A stretch of DNA of 64,000 bases from Hymenobacter telluris (lineage in GTDB: Bacteria; Bacteroidota; Bacteroidia; Cytophagales; Hymenobacteraceae): NCBI RefSeq assembly GCF_017313265.1, contig NZ_JAFLQZ010000001.1, positions 1 through 64,000 on the forward strand, written 5' to 3'. Positions 37,484 to 41,712 of the stretch are shown one piece after another; position 1 is the first letter of the stretch; every line of letters begins with the position of its first letter. The position numbers and the translations under genes were made by a program. The notes under the pieces are model-generated. The model worked only from the letters and a program-made list of their open reading frames with translations, did no database searches and was not told where the DNA came from.

Positions 37484-38632
37484 TTACTGGCCGACGTATA
37501 CTGCCGCGGCCTTCTCGCGCAGGTTGTACCCCGACGACATCACCTCGCCATACGCACCCACCGAGCGAATGGCCACCAGGTCGCCGCGCTGGGTTTGGGG
37601 GAGCTGCACGCCTTTGCGGAACGTGTCCGACGATTCGCAGATGGGGCCTACCACGTCGTAGAGCTGCTCGGGGCCGGTGCTGGTTAGGTTCTGGATGTGG
37701 TGGTAGCTGCCGTAGAGGGCCGGGCGCATCAGCTCGGTCATGCCCGCATCAAGAATAGCGAACTGGGTTTGCTGGCTTTGCTTGACGTAGAGCACCCGGC
37801 TGATGAGCGTGCCGGCCTGGGCCACTATGGCGCGGCCCAGCTCTACGTGTACCTGCTGGCCCGGCCGCCGCACCAAATGCTTCTCAAACATCGAGAAATA
37901 GCCCTCAAAATCCGGAATAGCCTGCTCGTCGGGGTGCTCGTAGCTGACACCCAGGCCACCGCCCACGTTGAGGTGGGGGAGGTGGTGGCCCTGGTCGGTG
38001 AGGGCGGTTTGCAGCTCGTTGAGCCGCTCACTGAGCTTGGCAAACACCGACAGGTTGGTAATCTGGGAACCGATGTGCGCGTGCAAGCCCACCAGCTCCA
38101 GGTTCGGGAGGGAGCCGAGGTAGGCCACCACGGCTGGTAAATCGGTGAGGCTGATGCCGAACTTGTTGGCCGCCAGCCCCGTGGTGATGTGCGGGTGCGT
38201 GTAGGCATCCACGTTGGGGTTCACGCGCAAGGCCACCCGTGCCGTGCGGCCCTGCGCCCCGGCCAGGGCATCCAGCACCGCCAGTTCCGCCGTCGATTCG
38301 GCGTTGAAGCACCAGATGTCGGCCGCCAGCGCCAGGTTGATTTCCGCATCCGACTTGCCCACGCCCGCAAATACAATGTGGCCCGGCGCAAAACCGGCTT
38401 CCAGGGCGCGCTGCACTTCGCCGCCGCTCACGCAGTCGGCCCCCAGGCCCTGGTTTTTGATGCGTTCCAGAATGGGCAGGTTGACGTTGGCTTTCAAGGC
38501 GTAGTGCACCTGAAAATTGCGGGGCTTGGCGGCCTGCTGCAACGCCGTAAGCGTGCGGTCGAGCAGGGCGAGGTCGTAGTGGTAAAAGGGGGTCGGCTGC
38601 GTGTGCAGCGCGGAGGAAAGCTGAAAAGGCAT
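37484..38632 (-). CDS. lysA: diaminopimelate decarboxylase
   Basis: This enzyme catalyses the last step of lysine synthesis, decarboxylation of meso-diaminopimelate with PLP. The 382-residue protein is an alanine-racemase-fold type III decarboxylase. The PLP lysine is in VHYALKANVNLPIL near residue 48. DCVSGGEV, HITTGLAANKFGI, GGGLGVSY and the partner-subunit motif ICESSDTF (CESSD) all fit LysA rather than ornithine or carboxynorspermidine decarboxylase. It lies 114 nt downstream of aspartate kinase on the same strand, so the first and last steps of the lysine branch are probably one transcript. Confidence 0.95.
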   Translation of the reverse strand: MPFQLSSALHTQPTPFYHYDLALLDRTLTALQQAAKPRNFQVHYALKANVNLPILERIKNQGLGADCVSGGEVQRALEAGFAPGHIVFAGVGKSDAEINLALAADIWCFNAESTAELAVLDALAGAQGRTARVALRVNPNVDAYTHPHITTGLAANKFGISLTDLPAVVAYLGSLPNLELVGLHAHIGSQITNLSVFAKLSERLNELQTALTDQGHHLPHLNVGGGLGVSYEHPDEQAIPDFEGYFSMFEKHLVRRPGQQVHVELGRAIVAQAGTLISRVLYVKQSQQTQFAILDAGMTELMRPALYGSYHHIQNLTSTGPEQLYDVVGPICESSDTFRKGVQLPQTQRGDLVAIRSVGAYGEVMSSGYNLREKAAAVYVGQ

Positions 38633-38746: not shown

Positions 38747-40120
38747 CTAGAAGGCTAGTTCGCCCTCTTTTTTCGCGAGGGAGTTAGGAACTGAGTTTGG
38801 CCGGTGAAACAGCCCCGCATTCAGCGCCTGCAAAGCTTGCACTTTATCGGCGGAATTCACCAGAATGCTGATGTTGTTGGGGGAGCCGCCGTAGGAAATC
38901 ATGCGCAACGGAATGTTCTGAAGTGCCTCGAAGGCCCGGTGCGCCGCGCCGTGGTTCACTTGCCCTAAGTTGCCTACCAGGCAAATGATGGTTTGCTGGG
39001 TATCCACTTCCACGCTGCCAAAGCGACGCAGCTCCTCCAGAATCTGGGGTAGGCGGGTGGCGTCGTCGATGGTAAGCGACACGGCCACTTCCGAGGTGGT
39101 AATCATGTCGATGGAGGTGCGGTACCGCTCGAATATCTCGAACAGGCTGCGCAAAAAACCGTGCGCCAGCAGCATCCGGCTCGACTTCACGTTGATGGCC
39201 GTAATGCCGTCCTTGGCAGCTACGGCCTTAATAGCCTCCTCACCGGTTTTGCTGGAAATGAGAGTGCCGGGTGCCTCGGGCTGCATGGTATTAAGCAGCC
39301 GCACCGGAATGCCGTGCAGCCGGGCCGGCAGCACCGAGCTGGGGTGCAGAATTTTCGCCCCGAAATAGGCCAGCTCGGCCGCCTCGTCAAACGACAGTTC
39401 GCGCAGCGGATACGTGTTGGACACAATGCGCGGGTCGTTGTTGTGCAGCCCATCAATGTCGGTCCAAATCTGGATTTCCTCGGCCCTAACGGCCGCGCCA
39501 ATCAACGAGGCTGAGTAGTCGGAGCCGCCGCGCTTGAGGTTGTCGATGTGGCCCTGCGTGTTGCGGCAGATGTAGCCCTGCGTAACGAACAGCTGCTGGT
39601 GGGTGTGCAGTGCCAGCGTAGCCACTAAGTGCTCCTGAATGTAAGCGGCGTCGGGCTCGTCGTCTTGGTCGAGGCGCATGAAGTCCAGGGCGGGCAGCAG
39701 CACCGCTTCGCGGCCCAGAATGCCGGTTACATACTGATGAAACAGGTAGGTGCTCAGCAGCTCACCCTGGGCCAGAATCACCCGCTCGCCGGCAGCCGAC
39801 AGGGGCTGGCGGGTGAGGTCGAACAGAGCCCGGAAAATAGTGTCCAGGTGCTTGAGGGCAGCGGCGGCCACGGCCTCATCGGGCAGCAGCTCGCGGGCTA
39901 CCATGTGGTAATCCTGGCGCATGATTTCAATGCGCGCAGTGGCGGCGGCCAGGTCGCCGCTGTAGAGCAATTGCGCAATGGCCACCAGCGTATTGGTGGT
40001 GCCGCTCATAGCCGACAGCACCACGAGCTGCCGCTGCTCCGGCGCGTGAATCAATTCGGCCACCTCGCGCATCCGCTGCGCCGACCCGACGGACGTGCCG
40101 CCAAACTTCAGAACTTTCAT
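38747..40120 (-). CDS. lysC: aspartate kinase
   Basis: Aspartate kinase commits aspartate to the lysine, threonine, methionine and diaminopimelate pathways. This 457-residue monofunctional enzyme starts MKVLKFGGTSVGS, the ATP/aspartate motif. GGSDYSASLIG lies in the kinase core. Two ACT regulatory domains fill the last 150 residues (from about ITAINVKSSRML). The ATG at 40120 is chosen over 40135 because it gives the family N-terminus directly. Only 25 nt separate it from a minus-strand terminator at 40154-40178 with a U-run, so transcripts must pass that hairpin. The lysC symbol is given for its lysA neighbour; feedback specificity is not known. Confidence 0.93.
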   Translation of the reverse strand: MKVLKFGGTSVGSAQRMREVAELIHAPEQRQLVVLSAMSGTTNTLVAIAQLLYSGDLAAATARIEIMRQDYHMVARELLPDEAVAAAALKHLDTIFRALFDLTRQPLSAAGERVILAQGELLSTYLFHQYVTGILGREAVLLPALDFMRLDQDDEPDAAYIQEHLVATLALHTHQQLFVTQGYICRNTQGHIDNLKRGGSDYSASLIGAAVRAEEIQIWTDIDGLHNNDPRIVSNTYPLRELSFDEAAELAYFGAKILHPSSVLPARLHGIPVRLLNTMQPEAPGTLISSKTGEEAIKAVAAKDGITAINVKSSRMLLAHGFLRSLFEIFERYRTSIDMITTSEVAVSLTIDDATRLPQILEELRRFGSVEVDTQQTIICLVGNLGQVNHGAAHRAFEALQNIPLRMISYGGSPNNISILVNSADKVQALQALNAGLFHRPNSVPNSLAKKEGELAF

Positions 40121-40145
40121 ACCGGTAAAAACCAATCAGAGAAAC

Positions 40146-40178
40146 AAAAAAAAGCGCCGGCCCTATTCGGACCGGCGC
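40146..40178 (-). terminator. intrinsic terminator in the aspartate kinase leader (attenuator)
   Basis: On the minus strand GCGCCGGTCC pairs with GGGCCGGCGC (one G-U) around the loop GAATA and is followed by eight T. The T-run is present on the minus strand only. The start codon of aspartate kinase follows 25 nt later, too close for a promoter after the hairpin. Confidence 0.85.
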
Positions 40179-40220
40179 GGAGAGTTCAGCAAACAAAGGT
40201 GCAGAGAACAGCTACGACGG

Positions 40221-40256
40221 TCAGGCCGGAATCCGTTTCTTGCATTTCTTCCCCAT
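40221..40256 (-). CDS. Lys-rich leader peptide candidate
   Basis: An ATG at 40256 opens 11 codons encoding MGKKCKKRIPA and stops at TGA (40221-40223). Four of eleven residues are Lys and one Arg, arranged as two Lys-Lys pairs. It ends about 40 nt before the terminator stem of the aspartate kinase leader. CGG and CCGGC in its last codons can pair with the 5' arm of the terminator, as in an antiterminator. A second frame (40186-40245) encodes a 19-residue peptide rich in Val and Thr. No protein product has been shown for either. Confidence 0.5.
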   Translation of the reverse strand: MGKKCKKRIPA

Positions 40257-40452
40257 CACGCACGCGCTGGCCTTGCCAGAAGCTGGCAGCAGTTGCGCAT
40301 TGAAAACAGGTGAAGTGAAGAGCATCAGACAAGGAGCAAGCCACGCATAGGTAGCTCTGCGGCTGCAAGTAAAAACATAATTCTCGTTTCGCCTGCATCC
40401 TTCCCGAAAATCTTCAATCCCCCTAAAGGGTAGCAGCGCTCTGCCAGCTGGC

Positions 40453-41247
40453 TTATTGATGAGGGGTATTACTTACTGCACCGGCCCCCGATGGCATAGC
40501 ACCAGCCATGGTAGCCAGGCCCTTGGCGGCGTGGCTGAACTCCGACGGAATCAGGACGACGGTGGTGGTGCTGTTGTCGATGCCGATTTCCGAAATCATC
40601 TGCATCCGGCGCAGCTCCAGTGCCATGGGGCTGTTTTCCATCTGCTGGGCACCCTGCGTGAGCTTGATGCTGGCTTCCAGCTCGGCTTCGGCTTTGATGA
40701 TGCGGGCTCGTTTTTCGCGCACCGCTTCGGCTTCGCGCGCCATGGCCCGCTGCATCGACTCGGGAATTTCCACGTCCTTGATTTCTACCAGCTCAATCTT
40801 CACGCCCCAGGGTTCGGTGGCGGCATCCACGAGTTGCAGCAACGACGCGTTGATTTGCTGACGGCCCCGCAGCACCTCATCCAGCTGGTGCTGCCCGATG
40901 ATGTTGCGCAGCGCCGTTACGGCCAGTTGGTACACGGCTTGGTTGTAGTTGGCCACTTTGATAATAGCAGCGGCCGGGTCGAGTACCCGGAACCATAGTA
41001 CGGCGTTTACTTTGATGGTTACGCTGTCCTTGGTAATGGTTTCCTGCTGCTCCAGGTCCACGGTTTTGGTGCGCATATCAATCGTGACGCGCCGCTCAAT
41101 GAAGGGGATAATCCAGTACAGCCCCGGCCCGCGGGTGCCCGTAAACCGGCCCAGCCGAAACACAATGGCCCGCTCGTACTCCTGCGCAATGCGCAGCCCA
41201 AGCAGCAGAAAAACAACGACTAGCAGAACAATAGTGAGGAATGACAT
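40453..41247 (-). CDS. SPFH/band-7 protein (slipin-like)
   Basis: This 264-residue membrane-scaffold protein has an N-terminal transmembrane helix (about 3-22), then the band-7 core: YERAIVFRLGRFTGTRGPGL, IPFIERRVTIDMRT, VLWFRVLDPAAAI, ALRNIIGQHQLDEVL and the conserved coiled region AMAREAEAVREKRARIIKAEAE. This matches the stomatin/slipin branch (YbbK/QmcA-like), which forms large oligomers in lipid microdomains. No partner NfeD-type protease is next to it, unlike many slipins. The ATG at 41247 (MSFLTIVLL) is chosen; an earlier ATG at 41310 gives a poor N-terminus. Confidence 0.92.
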   Translation of the reverse strand: MSFLTIVLLVVVFLLLGLRIAQEYERAIVFRLGRFTGTRGPGLYWIIPFIERRVTIDMRTKTVDLEQQETITKDSVTIKVNAVLWFRVLDPAAAIIKVANYNQAVYQLAVTALRNIIGQHQLDEVLRGRQQINASLLQLVDAATEPWGVKIELVEIKDVEIPESMQRAMAREAEAVREKRARIIKAEAELEASIKLTQGAQQMENSPMALELRRMQMISEIGIDNSTTTVVLIPSEFSHAAKGLATMAGAMPSGAGAVSNTPHQ

Positions 41248-41712
41248 GGCAGTAAGTGAATGAGGGTGAAAAGCCAGCGTCAATGAACCGGCTCTGGTGT
41301 CCTCTGCCACAAACCCGATGCCGGCCCAGGTTGAGCTTTACCGGCCAACCGCCCCCACTACGCTAAAACCCGCTTACAACTCTTGAAAGTGGCTTTATGG
41401 GAGTGATTAAAGCATAAACATTCCCGGCGAAGCTATATGGCGTCCGTTGTTGCCCTGCCATTTCGGCTAGGGTAGCCTACCGTTTTGGTAGGGTAGGGCA
41501 CCCGGCAACACGCTGTAGAGACGCCACACTTGGCATCTCGGCGCTGCTGATGTTGTTTATCTGGTGTCGCTCAAATGGCGCGGATGCCGAGACGCCAAGT
41601 GTGGCGTCTCTACAGCGGTTATAACACTACGAAAAACAGAAAAGGGAGCAAGCCGCTCTGGCCTGCTCCCTTTTGCTTTTAGCTGGGGCTGATTTCTGCT
41701 TCTGAATCTGGT
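41248..41712. other. intergenic region with REPIN-like repeat
   Basis: These 465 nt hold the SPFH promoter side and repeat family A copy 1. No ORF is supported. TAGGGTAGGGTAGG-like words near 41470-41500 are mildly repetitive. Confidence 0.5.
41514..41614. repeat. REPIN-like palindrome, family A, copy 1
   Basis: Arms 41514-41542 and 41586-41614 (29 bp, one mismatch) start TGTAGAGACGCC. Each arm is itself nearly palindromic around GAGACGCC/GGC.TCTC, giving a two-hairpin element. Confidence 0.8.

Follow-up and report, generated by a model that had tools for sequence, protein, structure and literature searches.

Organization of the ask-lysA locus

The window, a stretch of 64,000 nucleotides from Hymenobacter telluris, carries an aspartokinase gene followed by lysA, and between the aspartokinase gene and its upstream neighbour lies a leader region with a short reading frame and several mutually complementary segments. 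Coordinates are window positions and all parts are read on the minus strand.

40453-41310, minus: SPFH/slipin gene, the upstream neighbour, ending at 40453
40365-40371, minus: promoter-like TACTTGC, a motif conserved in relatives, where it is usually TACTTGCGGCCGCAAA
40221-40325, minus: leader peptide ORF of 34 codons, MLFTSPVFNAQLLPASGKASACVMGKKCKKRIPA and stop; frame open in 60/60 related elements
40236-40250, minus: control codons AAG AAA TGC AAG AAA (Lys Lys Cys Lys Lys); the last AAA, 40238-40236, is invariant
40225-40228, minus: segment 1 (CGGC), which pairs with 40218-40215 to give a small protector hairpin
40214-40222, minus: segment 2 (GACCGTCGT), the 5´ strand of the antiterminator, overlapping the stop codon; GACCGTCG is 40222-40215
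40184-40209, minus: apical helix of the antiterminator, GTTC 40209-40206 paired with GAAC 40187-40184
40170-40178, minus: segment 3 (GCGCCGGTC), the 5´ arm of the terminator, shared with the antiterminator; identical in 60/60 elements
40178-40154, minus: intrinsic terminator, 10-bp stem GCGCCGGTCC/GGGCCGGCGC with loop GAATA, followed by T8 at 40153-40146
38747-40120, minus: aspartokinase gene (lysC type; ask), with its ATG at 40120, 25 nt past the T run
37484-38632, minus: lysA, diaminopimelate decarboxylase, 114 nt after ask

The ask product scores above the cut-off of TIGR00657 (aspartate kinase) and contains an ACT_9 domain; its top NCBIfam model is NF006570 (lysine-sensitive aspartokinase 3), at 399.8 bits and thus under the equivalog cut-off of 455. 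The product of lysA, a gene that the initial annotation had rightly noted downstream, scores above the cut-off of TIGR01048, and in 58/58 loci of the family lysA is the same-strand neighbour of ask.

A TACTTGC-like motif precedes the leader in 60/60 elements, and the 15-mer TACTTGC[GA]GCCGCAA is found in 26 of them, with none expected in shuffled sequences. Between the terminator and the ATG of ask, a full TAnnTTTG promoter was found in 0/59 sequences. In many relatives, TACTTGC leads into TTGCGGCCGCAA, a nearly perfect palindrome located where transcription probably starts; the corresponding window positions are 40360-40371. This palindrome could be an operator or a feature of the start site.

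A predicted leader peptide with lysine codons at its end

The 11-codon ORF MGKKCKKRIPA described in the initial annotation (40256-40221) is present, and proves to be the C-terminal end of a longer ORF of 34 codons. The start of the leader is most likely the ATG at 40325, because relatives have an ORF of approximately 34-52 codons in the same frame. Across 60 distinct elements this frame contains zero stops, as against many in the other two frames. A competing ORF of 70 amino acids (40186-40398) was rejected: only 30/60 relatives keep it open over 40 codons, and it has no family match.

The last 11 codons of the leader include 3-4 Lys codons in 60/60 elements, and over the last 12 codons the share of Lys is 31% in the leader frame versus approximately 1% or less out of frame; these per-codon counts include some species twice, the distinct set after reduction being the 60 elements. 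The codon five before the stop site (codon -5) is AAA in every one of the 60, codon -8 encodes Lys in all elements except one, and codons -9 and -6 are usually AAG across the related elements. The residues between and ahead of the Lys codons are variable. Further upstream, the coding constraint is weak, as expected of a leader peptide, and translation of the ORF is predicted. The spacing is fixed in 60/60 elements, with AAA at codon -5 and segment 2 beginning at the stop codon. Ten elements (L013, L015, L025, L027, L028, L029, L055, L065, L066 and L078), all with GACCGTCG intact, have CGA in place of the stop TGA, and in 10/10 the frame then ends at a TAG four codons later (RPSH, stop), so that a terminating ribosome would still lie over segment 2.

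Predicted competing RNA structures between the leader and ask

The terminator was described correctly from the outset, with a 10-bp stem and eight T on the minus strand, 25 nt before the aspartokinase ATG. This conserved intrinsic terminator lies between the leader ORF and ask, and its stem is well maintained, with 98.5% of cells paired in 26 species and one pair showing compensatory changes in 5. Lys codons, terminator and an antiterminator recur together in all 60 distinct sequences.

The sequence GACCGTCG sits just past the Lys codons, begins inside the stop codon and is identical in 59/60 elements; it is followed by C or T as the last base of segment 2. Pairing of segment 2 with the terminator arm GCGCCGGTC (40178-40170) gives 8/9 pairs in 59/59 elements, the one remaining position being a T-C mismatch in every element, and the sixtieth element has a two-base insertion in the antiterminator and still folds. 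When the region from segment 2 to the 5´ arm of the terminator is folded, the antiterminator is formed in the minimum-energy structure of all 60, and for this stretch z, measured against dinucleotide shuffles, averages -2.5. Mean energies are -14.5 kcal/mol for the antiterminator and -19.1 for the terminator. A composition shuffle of the window alone did not single out the antiterminator duplex (p ~0.2). The antiterminator, which engages the 5´ arm of the terminator and so excludes it, is supported by conservation and not by covariation, because both strands of the segment 2-3 pairing are invariant. The initial annotation had proposed a different antiterminator, in which CGG and CCGGC pair with the terminator arm (CCGGC/GCCGG). 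Its fourth pair is broken in 18/26 relatives, and the conserved strand is GACCGTCG.

Two further helices accompany this pairing. The apical helix of the antiterminator is short in the window. Relatives retain it though its sequence and position differ by group (GTTC/GAAC; ATGC/GCAT), and z averages -1.5 across 55 distinct regions. The protector hairpin, formed by segments 1 and 2, is paired in 99% of cells across 26 sequences of the genus and is independently predicted by RNAalifold; in the sister genus, it is weak or absent in most elements. The segment 2-3 pairing is therefore the essential one.

A model for attenuation by charged tRNA-Lys

Taking together the parts, their conservation and spacing, and the link to ask-lysA, as read from sequence and comparison, we consider it highly probable that ask-lysA is controlled by transcription attenuation, mediated by the ribosome and responsive to charged tRNA-Lys; transcription start, stall and lysine effect are inferred. 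RNA polymerase would start at the TACTTGC element (at approximately 40371), and the leader RNA would encode a 34-residue peptide ending in K-K-C-K-K-R-I-P-A. When lysyl-tRNA is scarce, the ribosome would stall at the Lys codons, chiefly at the invariant AAA five before the stop. A ribosome stalled there would cover segment 1 and end just short of GACCGTCG, leaving the latter free to pair with the 5´ arm of the terminator and, together with the apical helix, to let transcription continue into ask and lysA. With plentiful lysine, a ribosome at the stop codon would cover GACCGTCG and the terminator would form; alternatively, the ribosome would leave and segment 1 would hold GACCGTCG, with the same outcome.

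The geometry of the leader fits this model. The ribosome footprint extends approximately 12 nt beyond the codon being translated (PMC4833913). A 12-nt footprint from the AAA at codon -5 ends at the last nucleotide before the stop codon, and segment 2 starts 1 nt later; by the same footprint, a ribosome at the stop codon would cover segment 2. Such an arrangement is of the trp type and predicts read-through under lysine shortage. The initial annotation had placed the stall at the first Lys-Lys pair, where segment 1 would remain exposed and stalling would be less ideal; most probably, the final Lys codon (AAA, 40238-40236) is the one at which the stall is decisive. Its reading of the locus as lysine-sensing attenuation by a leader peptide was largely right, in view of the conservation in 60/60 elements, and differs from ours in the length of the ORF, the strand of the antiterminator and the codon of the stall.

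One alternative is that the basic nascent peptide (KKxKKR), or the runs of AAG and AAA, slows the ribosome whatever the lysine level, such that the leader would sense the general rate of translation, an antibiotic or some other signal. The C-terminal clustering of Lys and Arg, together with the very rigid AAG AAA pattern, would suit an arrest-type leader of this kind. However, the residues between the Lys codons are free to vary (S, C, H, R; and F, C, L, W, V at -6) and conservation is poor elsewhere in the peptide, which sets it apart from arrest peptides. Moreover, the codon fits the end product of ask-lysA, and the thr and his leaders of the same genome, described below, obey the same codon rule, so we regard an arrest-type leader as improbable.

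A metabolite-binding riboswitch, either an L-box or a new class, could sense lysine directly, and L-box control is common for lysine genes (PMC1262725, PMC2258182). Like the attenuator proposed here, the L-box (RF00168) acts on lysine genes through RNA structure; it does so in many bacteria and often by termination, but it senses lysine through an aptamer. The covariance models of the L-box and the T-box have no match upstream of ask, and an Rfam search returned nothing above gathering score except a tRNA elsewhere, in agreement with the initial annotation, in which no L-box was seen. The conserved part comprises approximately 115 nt, with two or three simple hairpins and a reading frame and no multi-helix aptamer, which makes direct sensing of lysine very unlikely.

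Distribution of the element and of the operon

An orthologous ask was found in 28/61 sampled genomes of the same genus, and the element lies upstream of it in 27 of these 28, as against 0/33 genomes without that ask. A covariance model built from 26 leaders detected strong copies before ask in 56/120 same-genus genomes. A sister genus, which includes Solirubrum puertoriconensis, yielded strong copies in eight genomes, again before ask. In total, the two genera contributed 60 distinct element sequences. Weak matches to the model (≤38 bits) were also obtained away from ask, within the genus and in genus g3; those inspected were other terminators without a Lys leader or ask, and were discarded. 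The GTDB collection was searched with a pattern defined by segment 2 and the two terminator arms only, irrespective of Lys codons, T run or gene. Among the 80 listed of 99 matches, 32 are from Hymenobacter/Solirubrum and all of these have the T run and the Lys frame; ask lies 31-198 nt downstream in 31/32, and the 32nd locus ends before ask. The other 48 listed matches have neither T run nor ask. A chance origin is excluded because the element is conserved, with T run, Lys frame and ask occurring together in the pattern search.

The same data bear on the proposal that the hairpin is the 3´ terminator of the SPFH/slipin gene or of a small RNA, with the Lys ORF arising by chance. The slipin gene lies on the same strand and ends at 40453, and weak, sub-threshold Rfam matches to small RNAs reflect the hairpin and T run, but slipin is near ask in only 9/30 loci tested while the element stays with ask, T-run copies occur only before ask among the listed GTDB matches, and the Lys frame is conserved in 60/60; as a full account the proposal is refuted by the comparative data and has next to no probability.

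Four further genera of the family were sampled. They have ask-lysA with a short leader before ask, in which a promoter-like motif lies near the ATG, and no Lys leader was seen. Approximately half of the Hymenobacter species are without the ask-lysA operon. Most of the operon-less species sampled have a divergent lysA (34-38% identical) at another place, a pattern that would fit an exchange of the operon, and no Lys leader was seen upstream of this lysA in the seven inspected. One species (G025) has kept a 75% identical lysA without ask or the element. From the distribution of ask and lysA, the switch therefore belongs to one operon in one lineage. A second, decayed copy was observed in another species (G029), approximately 1.4 kb upstream of the working attenuator (L069, G029:C45:126737-126868); it has kept the terminator and segment 2 and lost most of the Lys codons.

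Relation to known attenuators and to other leaders in the genome

The leader-peptide attenuators of the trp, his and thr operons of E. coli represent classical attenuation. They share with the element described here the codons for the end product in a leader ORF, the organization into 1:2 and 2:3 (antiterminator) and 3:4 (terminator) pairings and a spacing set by the ribosome footprint, and differ in that the present element has Lys codons, ask-lysA as its target and a host from Bacteroidota; a relation in sequence is not claimed. In Thermus thermophilus, Tsubouchi et al. reportedly described, in 2005, a lysine cluster under leader-peptide attenuation with lysine codons. As described, that system also attenuates lysine synthesis through a lysine-codon leader peptide, but belongs to another phylum and acts on genes of the aminoadipate pathway.

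Classical attenuators are known mainly from Proteobacteria and Actinobacteria (PMC2965389, PMC1262725). In Flavobacterium psychrophilum, of the same phylum as Hymenobacter and a different family, leader-peptide attenuation has been proposed before amino-acid operons, with no lysine case named in the parts of the report consulted (PMC9723704), and the sections consulted of a study of Bacteroides hold clues to attenuation, without a lysine case (PMC7366714). The lysQ gene of Lactococcus was considered and dropped as a lysine precedent: it is described as histidyl-tRNA dependent (PMC4833913). In the literature on lysine leader peptides, we found no case from Bacteroidota. On balance, we think it probable that no lysine-coded leader-peptide attenuator was known before this one, either for the diaminopimelate pathway or in Bacteroidota, and that the switch is an innovation of the Hymenobacter/Solirubrum lineage over an ask-lysA operon that sister genera keep with a short leader and a promoter-like motif near the start codon.

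Lysine synthesis is usually ascribed to control by the L-box riboswitch, and control by lysine-codon leader peptides is rare. Given that the switch is conserved in approximately 60 species, and that one genome also has Thr/Ile and His leaders, classical translation-coupled attenuation may be general for amino acids in a branch of Bacteroidota; the lysine switch itself is missing from the other sampled genera of the family. The exact base pairs and codons are now available for testing.

Other biosynthetic genes of the same genome have putative leaders of their own. The gene thrA, for a bifunctional aspartokinase/homoserine dehydrogenase, is preceded by MTFPSVPLFTNSAPTGVCLTTGTGIITGITTR and a stop, followed by hairpins and a terminator, that is, by a Thr/Ile leader peptide. 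This leader, at L245 (255-353, contig C9), ends in LTTGTGIITGITTR and a stop, and such leaders are also found at L247 and L248; the C-terminal end TTGTGIITGITTR, up to the stop, is identical in two other species. Upstream of the third aspartokinase gene of the genome, no leader was seen. A His-rich short ORF ending in AHPHQHGHHSSF and a stop is located approximately 220 nt before the start of hisG (L279, contig C44) and is likely a histidine leader peptide. The leader codons match the pathway in three cases, Lys, Thr/Ile and His.
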